A stretch of DNA of 64,000 nt from Acuticoccus sp. I52.16.1. Its GTDB lineage: Bacteria > Pseudomonadota > Alphaproteobacteria > Rhizobiales > Amorphaceae. The stretch is from contig NZ_CP094832.1 in assembly GCF_022865125.1 (NCBI RefSeq), positions 1 through 64,000 on the forward strand, read 5' to 3'. The position numbers were made by a program, and so were the translations under genes. Below the pieces are notes generated by a model. The model was not told where the DNA came from and made no database searches. It saw only the letters and a list, made by a program, of their open reading frames with translations. Of this stretch, positions 51,253-59,563 are shown in pieces. Positions within the stretch are counted from its first letter, which is position 1; every line of letters starts with the position of its first letter.

Positions 51253-51738
51253 CTAGCCGGCCGCGCCGGCGAGGCGCGCGTCGAAGCCGAAGACCTCGGT
51301 GCGGCGGACCGTGACTGCCGCCATGAGCGGGTGGGCGGCGTTGAGCACCAGGTTGCGCTCCTGCGGCACGATCGCCGACGGCACCGAGAGGGCGAGCACG
51401 GCGCCCTCCGCCACCCACGCATCGCCGATGGCCCGGCAGGCGGCGGCGTCCTCCGGCGCAAACGTCCCGCGTGCCTCCACGTCGTCGATCCGCGCCTCCG
51501 CCGGCAGCACGATCTCGATCGCGCTCATCGTGGGGAGCGCGGCGACGGTGCGCATCTCGTGCGGCAGGTGGACGAAGGTTTCGAGGACGCACAGCGCCAG
51601 GCTGGAGCCGCAGTAGACCACCGCCACGCCGCGGCTGTTCCACCGGCCCCCGGCGAGGCGTGCGCCCTTGCCGTCGAGCCCCGGCGCATATTGCGGTCGC
51701 GTCAGGCGCCAGACGGTGCCCTCAACCGAAGACGCCAT
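51253..51738 (-). CDS. RES-domain toxin (putative NAD+-degrading)
   Basis: 161 residues. RLTRPQYAPGLDGKGARLAG GRWNSRGVAVVYCGSSLALC VLETFVHL holds the conserved Arg (GGRWN) and Glu (VLETFVH), and RNLVLNAAHPLMAAV is the conserved end. RES-family toxins (MbcT, Res) are NAD+ phosphorylases or glycohydrolases. The start overlaps the antitoxin stop by 17 bp. Located just downstream of parA-parB, consistent with plasmid maintenance. Confidence 0.88.
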   Translation of the reverse strand: MASSVEGTVWRLTRPQYAPGLDGKGARLAGGRWNSRGVAVVYCGSSLALCVLETFVHLPHEMRTVAALPTMSAIEIVLPAEARIDDVEARGTFAPEDAAACRAIGDAWVAEGAVLALSVPSAIVPQERNLVLNAAHPLMAAVTVRRTEVFGFDARLAGAAG

Positions 51739-52222
51739 ATTCGAACCTCACCAGCGCGTCCTCGACCTCGCGGGCGCCGACGTCGGTCCGCGCCATCTCG
51801 ATCGGTCGTTCGCCGGCGAGCGCGGGGTTGGGGCTGGTGAGCCAGCGGTCGGCGGTGGCGATGTCGCCGAACGCCTCCTCGGCGTGGGCGCGGACGCGGG
51901 CGAGGCGGACCACGGCGTCGGCCTCGGCGATCTTCAGCTCCTGCCCCTCGTTGATCCGCCGGGCGAGCGTCCGCGGCGGGATCACCATCTCGACATCGGA
52001 CCGGCGCAGGGCACCGCTGGCGAACGCTTCCGCGAGGCGGGCACCGCTGACGCCCTCCATGATCTCGGCATAGCTGAACGGCTGCACCCACACCTCGCTC
52101 GCCGTCACCGGCGAGGGTGCGGCCATCGCCTGCGCCGCGGGCCGGCGGGCCCCCTCCCCTGCCGCGCGGGTGCCGTGGTGCGACCGCGTGCGCCGCGCGG
52201 CCGGCTTCGCGTCGTCGCTCAT
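51722..52222 (-). CDS. Xre/MbcA/ParS-type antitoxin of the RES module
   Basis: 166 residues. A basic disordered N-terminus (PAARRTRSHHGTRAAGEGAR) is followed by YAEIMEGVSGARLAEAFASG and ALRRSDVEMVIPPRTLARRI NEGQELKIAEADAVVRLARV, an Xre-like domain, and a C-terminal toxin-binding DUF2384-like part ending ALVRFEYGVFG with DRWLTSPNPALAGERPIEM. The last is diagnostic of the MbcA/ParS antitoxins of RES toxins. It binds the toxin and its own promoter; a dyad upstream (52244-52285) is the likely operator. Confidence 0.88.
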   Translation of the reverse strand: MSDDAKPAARRTRSHHGTRAAGEGARRPAAQAMAAPSPVTASEVWVQPFSYAEIMEGVSGARLAEAFASGALRRSDVEMVIPPRTLARRINEGQELKIAEADAVVRLARVRAHAEEAFGDIATADRWLTSPNPALAGERPIEMARTDVGAREVEDALVRFEYGVFG

Positions 52223-52243
52223 GGTTCTATGCCTCGTTCGCCC

Positions 52244-52285
52244 TGCCTGCCATACGCCGTCAATACTTCGGCATTTGGCAGGCGA
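52244..52285. promoter_or_regulatory. Imperfect inverted repeat upstream of the antitoxin gene
   Basis: TGCCTGCCATACGCCG (52244-52259) and CGGCATTTGGCAGGCGA (52269-52285) are inverted copies with two or three mismatches around a short AT-rich centre (TCAATACTT). It sits in the 81-bp gap between parB and the antitoxin and overlaps candidate promoter hexamers on the minus strand. Likely toxin-antitoxin autoregulation site; less likely a partition site. Confidence 0.55.
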
Positions 52286-52303
52286 TTTCAAGGGCCGGCA
52301 ACC

Positions 52304-53536
52304 CTACTCGCTGCGGCTGTTCCATTCCTTCCAGAGGTCGTCGAGCTTGTCCCACAGGAAGTCGCCGAAGCCGGACGCGAGGCGCTTGTCGATGACGATC
52401 TTGTCGGACGCGGCCGTGACATCCCGGCGCAGCACCGGTTCCTTGGCGCCGCGCGGGCGGAACACTTCGCCCTTGGCCGCATGGGGGCGGCCGGCGGCGA
52501 TCAACCGGCGCATCGCCCGCGCGCCCCGGATCTCCTGGCGCTCCACCCGATCGAGCTCGGCGGCGATGCGGGCGCGCGCGGCCTCCTCGCGCCACAGCGT
52601 CTCCAGCGACAGCCATGTCGGCCGGCCGATCGACGGGTCGCCGCCGATGTGCATGACGAGACGGTCCGGCAAGGTCATCACCATGCGGTACCGGCTGACC
52701 TCGCTGCGCTGCACCCCGAGGACGTCGGCGGTGAACTGCACGGTCCACCCGGTGTCGGCGAGGAGCTTGGAGGCCTGGCGCGCCTTCTCGATGAAGGAAG
52801 GCGGGGCGTGCTGGCTGTTCTCGCGCGACAGGACGGTGACGGCGGCCTCGTCGTCCATCGTACGTACGATGGCGCGCAGCGGCCGGCCGAGCTTGACGCA
52901 CGCGCGGTGCCGGCGGTGGCCATAGACCAGCTCGAACCGCCCCGCCTCGCTCGGATGAGGGCGCACGAGCGCCGGCGCGATCTGCCCCTCGCGTAGAATG
53001 CTCTCGACCAGCGCGTCGAACTCGGCGCTGTCGTCGAAGTCGGCGAAGCGGTCGTGCCAGCGGAAGGGTGTGATGCGCTCGGTCGCGATCTCCTGGACGA
53101 CGGCGCCATCGTCCAGTGCGCGGCGCCAATGCTCGGCCTCCCGGCTCTGCTCGCCCCAGTTGTTGAGGAGGTGGCCGAGGCCCGGCGCGCGCGAGCCCGG
53201 CGCCGGCCGTGGCACCGACTTGGTCTCCGGCGCCGCCTCCGCCCGTGACGCGGCTGGCGGCTCCTCGGCTGACGGCGGCGTCGCGGGGGGTGCCGCCTCG
53301 ACCTTCTCCGCCGCGGCGCCGGCGACCGACGGGGGAGACGGCTGGGGCGCCGGGATCGGTCCTGCGGCCGGCTCGGATGCGGCGGGCGGTGTTTCGGCGG
53401 CCGCGGCGGCCGGGGGTTTCGGCGTGGGCTCGGGCCGGGCGGGCGCGGCGCGTGGCGGAGTGCGCGGCGCGTCGTCGTCCTCGTTGGCAATGTCGGCGAG
53501 GACGCTGGCGACGCGCTTGCGGGTCGATTTGGCCAT
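52304..53536 (-). CDS. parB: ParB-like partition protein (RepB-type)
   Basis: 410 residues. A long Pro/Ala/Glu-rich N-terminal linker (about 20-135), then the ParB/Srx nuclease-like CTPase core: FDALVESILREGQIAPALVR PHPSEAGRFELVYGHRRHRA (box with GHRRHRA), AVTVLSRENSQHAPPSFIEK ARQASKLL, and a helix-turn-helix WTVQFTADVLGVQRSEVSRY RMVMTLPD. A dimerisation tail follows. It binds centromere sites and is loaded with CTP. ATG 53536 is chosen since it starts MAKSTRKR and lies 1 bp after parA. Confidence 0.9.
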   Translation of the reverse strand: MAKSTRKRVASVLADIANEDDDAPRTPPRAAPARPEPTPKPPAAAAAETPPAASEPAAGPIPAPQPSPPSVAGAAAEKVEAAPPATPPSAEEPPAASRAEAAPETKSVPRPAPGSRAPGLGHLLNNWGEQSREAEHWRRALDDGAVVQEIATERITPFRWHDRFADFDDSAEFDALVESILREGQIAPALVRPHPSEAGRFELVYGHRRHRACVKLGRPLRAIVRTMDDEAAVTVLSRENSQHAPPSFIEKARQASKLLADTGWTVQFTADVLGVQRSEVSRYRMVMTLPDRLVMHIGGDPSIGRPTWLSLETLWREEAARARIAAELDRVERQEIRGARAMRRLIAAGRPHAAKGEVFRPRGAKEPVLRRDVTAASDKIVIDKRLASGFGDFLWDKLDDLWKEWNSRSE

Positions 53537-53537
53537 C

Positions 53538-54860
53538 TCAGTCCTCCGTGCGGTGGGTCGGCCGCTGCCACACGCGCAGGACCTCGGCCTCCAGCTCGGC
53601 ATTGACGCCGTCCATCGACTGCAACGCCCGGTCGTAGGTGCGCTTGTTGGAGCTGTCGCGCACCGCTTCGTAGAGGGTTTGGCGGGCGAGGCCGCAGTCG
53701 GCGACGGCGGTGCTGTGCACCATGGTCGCCGTCAGCACGTCGGTCCGGAACAGCGAGCGCAGGAAGGTCACCACCGCCATCTGCGGCTGGTCGGACGGGG
53801 TGTGCCGGGTGATCAGGATCTTCTCGAAGTCGAGCGGGGTGCTGCGGCCTCCCTGCCCTTCCAGCACCTCCATCAGCGAGCCGGCCAGCGTCATGAACTG
53901 CGCCATGGACGCGACGTCGATCATCTGCGGATGGACCGTCACGACGAGCCCTGTCGACGCGTAGAGGCCCGCCATGGTGATGAAGCCGAGCTGCGGCGGC
54001 GAGTCGAGGATGACGATGTCGTAGTCGTCGGCCACCTGGTCGATCGCCGAGGAGATGCGGGTAAAGAAGGGCGAGGGGTGACGCAGCATCAGCGCGCGCG
54101 GGCTCTCGGTCTCGAACTCGGCGAGCTCGAGGCTGGCGGGTACGAGGTCGAGGCCGGCGAAATAGGTTGGACGGATGATGTCGCGCAGGGGCCGCGGGCC
54201 GGCCTCCTCGCCGAGATGGGCGGGGTCGCCATCGTCCTGGAAGGTGATCGCGCCGAAGAGGCTCTCGTGCGGGCCGACATGCAGCTCCGGCGTGATGCCG
54301 AGCATGGTGGTGAGGCTCGCCTGCGGGTCGAGGTCGATGGCGAGGACGCGGTAGCCGCGCAGGGCGAAATATTGCGCGGCGTGGATCGCCTGGGTCGACT
54401 TGCCGGAGCCGCCCTTGAAGGTGGCGAAGTTGAGAACCTGGATGTGCTCGCCGGCGCGGCGGTGCGGCAGGTAGCGCCCCGGCGACTTGGCGTCGAGGTG
54501 AACCCGCAGGCGCGCCACTTCTTCCAGCGACCACACCCGCCGCCCGGCGGGCTTGGCCTCGGCCTTGGGGATCCCGAGTTCGCTCGCCATCTGGCGCACG
54601 TAGCGCTCGGTGACGCCGAGCAGGCCGGCCACCTCCTGGGTCTGGAAGGGGCGCAGGTTCTTGCTCTGGTCCGGCGCCCAGACCTCCTCGGCGAGGCGGC
54701 TGAGCTTGCGCGACAGGAGCTCGCCTTTGCGGGTGAAGCTGCGCGCGAGGCCGGCGTCCGATGGGGCGGCGGGGGCCGGGTGTGCGGGGCGCGCGTCCTC
54801 GTCCACACGGTCGGCGGCGGCGTCGGCCGCGGGGCGGTCCTGGACGCTGTTGCGATCCAT
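53538..54860 (-). CDS. parA: ParA-like partition ATPase (RepA-type)
   Basis: 440 residues. An N-terminal winged helix-like region (KNLRPFQTQEVAGLLGVTER YVRQMASELGIPKAEAKPAG RRVWSLEEV) precedes the P-loop FATFKGGSGKSTQAIHAAQY F (deviant Walker A) and DIVILDSPPQLG (Walker B). The large N-terminal DNA-binding domain is the repABC RepA/type Ia ParA feature and is used for autorepression. GAGGAGGAC precedes the ATG. Operon parA-parB, divergent from repC. Confidence 0.92.
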   Translation of the reverse strand: MDRNSVQDRPAADAAADRVDEDARPAHPAPAAPSDAGLARSFTRKGELLSRKLSRLAEEVWAPDQSKNLRPFQTQEVAGLLGVTERYVRQMASELGIPKAEAKPAGRRVWSLEEVARLRVHLDAKSPGRYLPHRRAGEHIQVLNFATFKGGSGKSTQAIHAAQYFALRGYRVLAIDLDPQASLTTMLGITPELHVGPHESLFGAITFQDDGDPAHLGEEAGPRPLRDIIRPTYFAGLDLVPASLELAEFETESPRALMLRHPSPFFTRISSAIDQVADDYDIVILDSPPQLGFITMAGLYASTGLVVTVHPQMIDVASMAQFMTLAGSLMEVLEGQGGRSTPLDFEKILITRHTPSDQPQMAVVTFLRSLFRTDVLTATMVHSTAVADCGLARQTLYEAVRDSSNKRTYDRALQSMDGVNAELEAEVLRVWQRPTHRTED

Positions 54861-54984: not shown

Positions 54985-55003
54985 GGTTAACGAGTGGTTA
55001 ACG
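54985..55003. promoter_or_regulatory. Two GGTTAACG repeats upstream of parA
   Basis: GGTTAACG occurs twice, separated by AGT, 125 bp upstream of the parA start. Each contains the palindrome GTTAAC. Possible ParA or ParB binding site for autorepression; function inferred. Confidence 0.4.
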
Positions 55004-55255: not shown

Positions 55256-55273
55256 GCGTGCCAGCTGTCACGG
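55256..55273. repeat. 18-bp palindrome, copy 1
   Basis: GCGTGCCAGCTGTCACGG differs from the perfect palindrome at 55411 in two positions. Part of a three-copy set within 173 bp. Confidence 0.75.
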
Positions 55274-55357
55274 GCGGTCCATGGCGTCTGGCCGTTCTCT
55301 ATTTTATGTCGGCCGTCCGCCGACCGACTGCCGTCCGTGAACTGGGCGACGGCTCGG

Positions 55358-55375
55358 TCGTGACACCTGTCACGC
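55358..55375. repeat. 18-bp palindrome, copy 2
   Basis: TCGTGACACCTGTCACGC differs from the perfect copy in two positions. Centred 102 bp from copy 1 and 53 bp from copy 3. Confidence 0.8.
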
Positions 55376-55410
55376 GAGAGGGTCGCAGCCTGGCGCTTGG
55401 CTGGCGAACT

Positions 55411-55428
55411 GCGTGACAGCTGTCACGC
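55411..55428. repeat. 18-bp perfect palindrome, copy 3
   Basis: GCGTGACAGCTGTCACGC is its own reverse complement. Repetition of such a long palindrome in the par/rep gap suggests a protein-binding site for ParB, ParA or RepC. Confidence 0.85.
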
Positions 55429-55766
55429 ACCGCGAGCCGCTCGCAATTCGCCGGTGTGCGGTGTGCGGAGCGTGTGCGATCTTCTGACAGTGGCTCAGGC
55501 TGTTTGCTGCACTCGAACTTGCGTCCGGTGCCGTCTGAACTGCGTAGAACCGACGGAACGTATCGCGCGCCGCTGATGAGATTTCGCTTTGTCGCACTTC
55601 GCGGACACATTCCCACGAATAAAAACGGATGGGCTCTAGACGCTTACAATCTTAACGTGTCCTTCAATTAACCTCGAGCGGAATGCCTAGGGCCGCACAT
55701 CGAATCGCATCACAATAGCTCGATCCGCCGTCACCATCGGTTCCTCTTGGACGCGGCAGTGCCGTT

Positions 55767-55790
55767 TTTGACACGGAATTCCTCGTCAAA
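55767..55790. promoter_or_regulatory. TTTGAC...GTCAAA dyad centred on GAATTC
   Basis: TTTGAC (55767-55772) and GTCAAA (55785-55790) are symmetric about a central GAATTC (55776-55781). The arms resemble the -35 hexamer on both strands. Possible operator in the rep control region. Confidence 0.4.
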
Positions 55791-55957: not shown

Positions 55958-56079
55958 GGACCGGGCGGCCGCGCAGGGCGGGTGCCGCGCGACCGGCGAT
56001 CGGTGCGTCCGCAGATCCTGGGGCAGGGGGGTCGCCCGAACCGGATTTCAACGAGGGTGTGAAGTCCATGACGTAACCC

Positions 56080-56157
56080 GGCAAAACGAAAGGCCTCGAA
56101 GCGGGAACTTCGAGGCCTTGGGTCTCACCACGTGAGTGGCGATAAGATCGTCTGGAC
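56080..56157 (-). ncRNA. Predicted antisense counter-transcribed RNA (ctRNA) of repC
   Basis: On the minus strand a promoter (TTGACA and CATAAG, 18-nt spacer) points away from repC, and about 70-75 nt downstream lies a perfect 12-bp hairpin followed by TTTCGTTTT, a canonical intrinsic terminator. The transcript would be antisense to the repC leader. This is the organisation of the inc ctRNA found just upstream of repC in repABC plasmids, where it limits RepC synthesis and copy number. Predicted start near 56157. Confidence 0.75.
56081..56119 (-). terminator. Intrinsic terminator of the predicted ctRNA
   Basis: AAGGCCTCGAAG (56090-56101) and its complement at 56108-56119 form a perfect 12-bp stem with a 6-nt loop. 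Read on the minus strand it is followed by TTTCGTTTT (complement of 56081-56089). It is also able to attenuate repC transcription on the plus strand. Confidence 0.8.
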
Positions 56158-56163
56158 AACGCT

Positions 56164-56193
56164 CTTATGCCATCGCGACGCACGGCGTGTCAA
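56164..56193 (-). promoter_or_regulatory. Promoter of the predicted ctRNA
   Basis: On the minus strand: TTGACA (complement of 56188-56193), an 18-nt spacer, CATAAG (complement of 56164-56169). A perfect -35 and a 4 of 6 -10 match. Strong promoters of this kind drive ctRNAs in repABC plasmids. Confidence 0.7.

Positions 56194-56247: not shown

Positions 56248-59563
<3,316 letters not shown>

Follow-up and report, generated by a model that had tools for sequence, protein, structure and literature searches.

What is the function of three copies of an 18-bp palindrome lying between the partition and replication genes of a probable plasmid, and which protein binds them? The window analyzed here comprises 64 kb, the 5′ part of the ca. 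80-kb contig C5 of the source genome (G000; assembly of 5,526,513 bp). On its reverse strand, repA (positions 53538 to 54860) encodes a 440-aa partition ATPase of ParA type that belongs to the RepABC family and scores 481 bits on TIGR03453 (partition_RepA) against a cutoff of 348, and directly behind it repB (52304 to 53536, reverse strand) encodes a 410-aa ParB-type centromere-binding protein, the presumed ligand of the palindromes. RepB passes the cutoffs of TIGR00180 and PF02195, and alignment to Caulobacter ParB (6t1f) places its helix-turn-helix at about residues 265 to 286; its 199.8 bits on TIGR03454 (partition_RepB) fall just below the equivalog cutoff of 201.5. The 442-aa replication initiator RepC, also of the RepABC family, is encoded on the forward strand (56248 to 57576), with 192.8 bits on NF040974 (RepABC_RepC; cutoff, 150) and with PF03428 and PF11800 over their cutoffs. 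All three genes expected of a repABC replicon are thus present, but instead of forming a single repA-repB-repC operon, repAB and repC stand head to head across a 1.39-kb gap, a divergent layout shared with contig C2 of a sister species (G005). Uncoupled repC genes and repAB pairs without repC are already known in the class (PMC2783167), and in our genome comparison the Methylobacteriaceae furnished examples as well. Since a search of a plasmid collection gave, among the matches listed, no RepA above 51%, no RepC above 50%, and no RepB above 39% identity, no close named replicon is available for comparison. The module is flanked downstream of repB by a RES/Xre (ParT/ParS-type) toxin-antitoxin pair (51253 to 52291, reverse strand), presumably a plasmid stability module, whose “ParS” antitoxin has nothing to do with the parS DNA site. 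Adjoining repC is thiC (57549 to 59351, reverse strand), a housekeeping-type gene of thiamine biosynthesis on what is probably a plasmid.

The first-pass annotation of this DNA had described one perfect and two near-perfect copies of the palindrome in the par/rep gap, and a pattern search bore this out, the gap being bounded by the starts of repA (54860, reverse strand) and repC (56248, forward strand). Copy 1 (GCGTGCCAGCTGTCACGG, 55256 to 55273) and copy 2 (TCGTGACACCTGTCACGC, 55358 to 55375) carry 2 mismatches each, a single one of which falls within the central 16 bp, and are centered 405 and 507 bp upstream of repA; copy 3 (GCGTGACAGCTGTCACGC, 55411 to 55428), the perfect one, lies farthest upstream of repA, with its center at a distance of 560 bp from that gene and of 829 bp from repC. 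The three copies, at spacings of 102 and 53 bp, were also recovered by an independent repeat search. No fourth site with up to 3 mismatches to GCGTGACAGCTGTCACGC occurs in the window, and shuffled sequences gave a mean of 0.11 sites in this search and never three. In the whole assembly, where about 0.12 sites with up to 2 mismatches are expected by chance, the same three were the only ones found. The annotation's view that the cluster exceeds chance therefore stands, and an even spread through the genome, which it had named as a finding that would count against a dedicated function, is ruled out. The window is GC rich, and shuffles of the gap do occasionally yield short palindrome families, as one would expect of a chance or neutral repeat. 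Such a family of three related near-palindromes, however, arose in just 2 of 2,000 dinucleotide shuffles of the repA-repC gap, the genome holds no further copies, and the motif is kept in the sister species. This conservation already refutes an origin by chance, to which we attach a negligible probability.

Among 60 relatives searched, a close RepB relative was found in one genome, that of the sister species G005, which belongs to the same genus and whose RepA, RepB, and RepC are 85%, 68% (tblastn) to 73%, and 52% identical to those of the window. In the gap of its C2 locus lie two exact copies of CGTGACAGCTGTCACG, 46 bp apart and 947 to 994 bp from the repA start. The intergenic DNA around the palindromes cannot be aligned between the two species, and so the palindromes have outlived their neighborhood. 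Absence from related replicons, a second outcome that the annotation had listed as damaging, is accordingly not what we see. The distribution is otherwise narrow: in the family's eight remaining genomes, neither a site with up to 1 mismatch nor a close RepB relative was found, and scans of 397 genomes of the order (up to 1 mismatch) and of 385 genomes of the class (paired sites) returned, besides G000 and G005, one isolated 1-mismatch site inside an open reading frame in G130, about what chance yields, and no further cluster. Independent loci found with this spelling thus number two, which we count against the interpretation of the sites as parS, as we do the imperfection of two of the three copies in the window and the RepB score just below its equivalog cutoff.

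The same comparison bears on whether the palindromes bind the RepC initiator or form part of the replication origin, an alternative that the annotation had raised and that their placement in the rep gap and iteron-like repetition might suggest. RepC relatives on contigs C9 of G005 (50% identity) and C3 of G002 (42 to 56%) are as close to the window's RepC as is that of G005 C2, yet no such palindrome was found on either of these contigs, which lack this RepAB. Because the motif is missing where equally close RepC relatives are accompanied by other partition genes, it travels with RepAB and not with RepC, and a reading of the sites as RepC iterons was rejected. Moreover, the origin of repABC replicons sits inside repC (PMC10194956, PMC5613091), whereas the palindromes lie more than 820 bp from that gene. 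We regard a role in initiation as very improbable. As a separate observation, G005 C9 has a different ParA-like gene near its RepC relative and two GTAACCC-type palindromes, GTAACCCACGGGTTAC and GTAACCCGTGGGTTAC (locus L087, positions 12204 and 12263), which are candidates for the centromere of a different partition system associated with a repC of this kind.

The motif follows this RepB across replicons, as is expected of a repABC parS; is it also spelled like one? The annotation had found no match to the standard repABC parS consensus. Formally this holds: the perfect copy has 4 mismatches to GTTNNCNGCNGNNAAC, the copies overall have 4 to 5 each, and of the 10 positions that the published consensus fixes, 4 disagree, which counts against a reading of the sites as parS; when at most 1 mismatch is allowed, matches to the canonical consensus occur in the window at chance level only, none of them in the gap. 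The statement nevertheless understates the likeness. The parS of pAMI4, GTTGACAGCTGTCAAC, additional repeats of which are bound by RepB in vitro (PMC9040568), has inner 12 bp, TGACAGCTGTCA, identical to those of our sites, and the outer two bases per side, GTT...AAC becoming CGT...ACG, are the only difference. Like this and other repABC parS sites, the window motif is a repeated 16-bp palindrome close to repAB, with its three copies 405 to 560 bp upstream of repA, a placement common in the Rhizobiales; unlike them, it has CGT...ACG outer bases and lies between repAB and a divergent repC. Nor is departure from the consensus without precedent, as the parS of pSmeLPU88b, CCTGTCAGCTGACAGG, is functional and off-consensus, as shown by incompatibility (PMC10194956). 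By our count it too has 4 mismatches to the consensus, again with off-consensus outer bases and an intact CAGCTG center, although it differs from the window sites in its outer and inner bases and in lying downstream of the repC gene of a repABC module. A working parS can therefore break the consensus, and failure to match it lowers the textbook status of a site but does not exclude it from the family. A further parallel is offered by the compatibility-group palindromes of roseobacter RepABC replicons, TTAACAG/CTGTTAA and TTCACAG/CTGTGAA (PMC5613091), which are group specific, differ by a few reciprocal bases, and are recognized by their cognate RepB, as we presume ours to be. There, an inner position varies and the TT...AA flanks are kept, whereas in the window it is the outer bases that have changed.

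The canonical spelling is indeed the rule elsewhere. In a survey of 24 alphaproteobacterial RepA-related loci from other genera (L047 to L070), 21 carried repeated palindromes of the GTTGTCAGCTGACAAC type or closely similar to it, placed upstream of repA, near the repA-repB junction, or at both places; an Ochrobactrum locus had GTTGGGACGTCCCAAC twice, and two Paracoccus loci had no repeated palindrome. The second repAB loci within the genus (G000 C6, G005 C12, G007 C6, and G002 C1) follow the GTTGTCAGCTGACAAC-type majority.

Given their uniqueness beside repAB, their retention with repAB in G005, and the core shared with pAMI4 parS, we consider it highly probable that the palindromes serve as parS for a partition system of the repABC family and are bound by the adjacent RepB; the annotation's suggestion that they may be the centromere of the replicon is thus well supported. 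Very likely, this is repABC parS in a recoded form, on a replicon whose divergent repAB/repC arrangement is unusual; the variant spelling is new, and off-consensus parS sites as such have already been published. By analogy with the family, a RepB dimer would use its helix-turn-helix domain to grip each of the palindromes, then load and spread along the flanking DNA. RepA, through ATP cycling, would separate two RepB-parS complexes, ensuring that the low-copy replicon passes to both daughter cells.

Two further kinds of regulator must be weighed against parS. The palindromes contain GTGA-N6-TCAC, which we take to fit the half-sites of the CRP family, so that a CRP/FNR-type regulator could have its operators here. 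Such regulators have no need of the six central bases, and yet the CAGCTG center is kept in 4 of the 5 copies across the two species. Nor does the distribution resemble that of a global regulator with many sites upstream of regulated genes, since GTGACANNTGTCAC occurs nowhere else in the 5.5 Mb of the genome. The string GTGACAGCTGTCAC does appear in a table of predicted regulatory sites for Desulfovibrio (PMC545781). We have rejected this interpretation and think it extremely unlikely to be correct. Palindromes resembling GTGACAGCTGTCAC also turned up in viral DNA: several are scattered through the 49-kb contig IMGVR_UViG_3300005337_000008, which is without RepABC homologues, and the positions recorded are 1443, 10675, and 11448 in L082 and 3004, 3175, and 8317 in L084. 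These are probably operators of a phage whose sequence resembles ours through convergence. Exact motif matches in two viral contigs were set aside, as they had no link to RepABC proteins.

The other possibility is that the palindromes are not themselves a centromere but mainly an operator, at which RepA and/or RepB would act as repressors of the repAB promoter and perhaps also of repC. Their position upstream of repA is one in which repABC operons also have imperfect-palindrome RepA operators, and RepB with parS adds to repression in p42d and pTiR10 (PMC4492784). The published operators, however, are near or overlap the promoter, and strong autorepression in Rhizobium leguminosarum did not need parS (PMC4492784), whereas the sites here are 405 to 560 bp (window) and 947 to 994 bp (G005) from the repA start, differ, unlike an operator, in copy number and spacing between the two species, and have a core that matches parS. 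As a main function this strikes us as improbable, on account of the distance and the published work; repression of repAB may be a secondary role of the palindromes.

If the sites are parS, their two spellings may bear on plasmid compatibility. In G000, the canonical spelling is found on the 97-kb contig C6, with one 2-mismatch site on C1, while the CGT...ACG variant is confined to the 80-kb C5; likewise, G005 has the canonical spelling on C12 and the variant on C2. This split is by contig, and contigs are not necessarily separate closed replicons. Identical parS sites cause incompatibility (PMC10194956), and compatibility groups would be expected to separate spellings replicon by replicon; the same split in both species therefore suggests compatibility-group specificity. 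Probably, then, RepB of the window does not cross-recognize the canonical parS on the other contig of G000, and the plasmid can coexist with a second one of standard spelling. The presumed recognition helix offers a hint as to how. Both CGT-type RepBs have VQRSEVSRYRM in the helix-turn-helix, with Gln276 where the RepBs of GTT-type loci have Asp, a correlation over just two closely related CGT-type proteins. We think it likely that we are dealing with a distinct RepB-parS specificity class, with CGT...ACG and a changed recognition helix, on a head-to-head repAB/repC replicon; it would define a compatibility group able to share a cell with a canonical repABC-type partition system.

The gap holds other elements of potential interest. 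In the repC leader, on the reverse strand (56076 to 56193), is a candidate ctRNA (RepE-type antisense RNA) with promoter-like hexamers (TTGACA-N18-CATAAG, 56193 to 56164) and a 13-bp terminator stem (56119 to 56090) followed by a T-rich tail (fold z = −3.96). An Rfam search matched it to no family; the hexamers and hairpin are kept in G005, on the strand opposite to repC, and the candidate has the place and shape expected of a repABC ctRNA. About 130 bp upstream of repA is a perfect CtrA-box-like TTAA-N7-TTAA (TTAACGAGTGGTTAA, 54987 to 55001), the only one in the 64 kb, where 0 are expected; G005 has a one-mismatch counterpart at a nearly equal distance from repA. Cell cycle control of the partition operon is a possibility, and a putative CtrA site has been noted upstream of repABC in pAMI4 (PMC9040568). 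Finally, a block at 55754 to 55782 (CGGCAGTGCCGTTTTTGACACGGAATTCC) is conserved between the window and G005 amid diverged DNA and is possibly a repC promoter or regulator site.

A practical consequence is that searches with GTTNNCNGCNGNNAAC will miss real repABC centromeres. A specialist would not be surprised by the system, and its use lies in studies of ParB specificity. What appears to be a naturally recoded ParB-parS pair stands alongside a canonical pair in the same genomes, in two species, which would allow a direct test of the residues by which RepB determines centromere spelling and plasmid compatibility.
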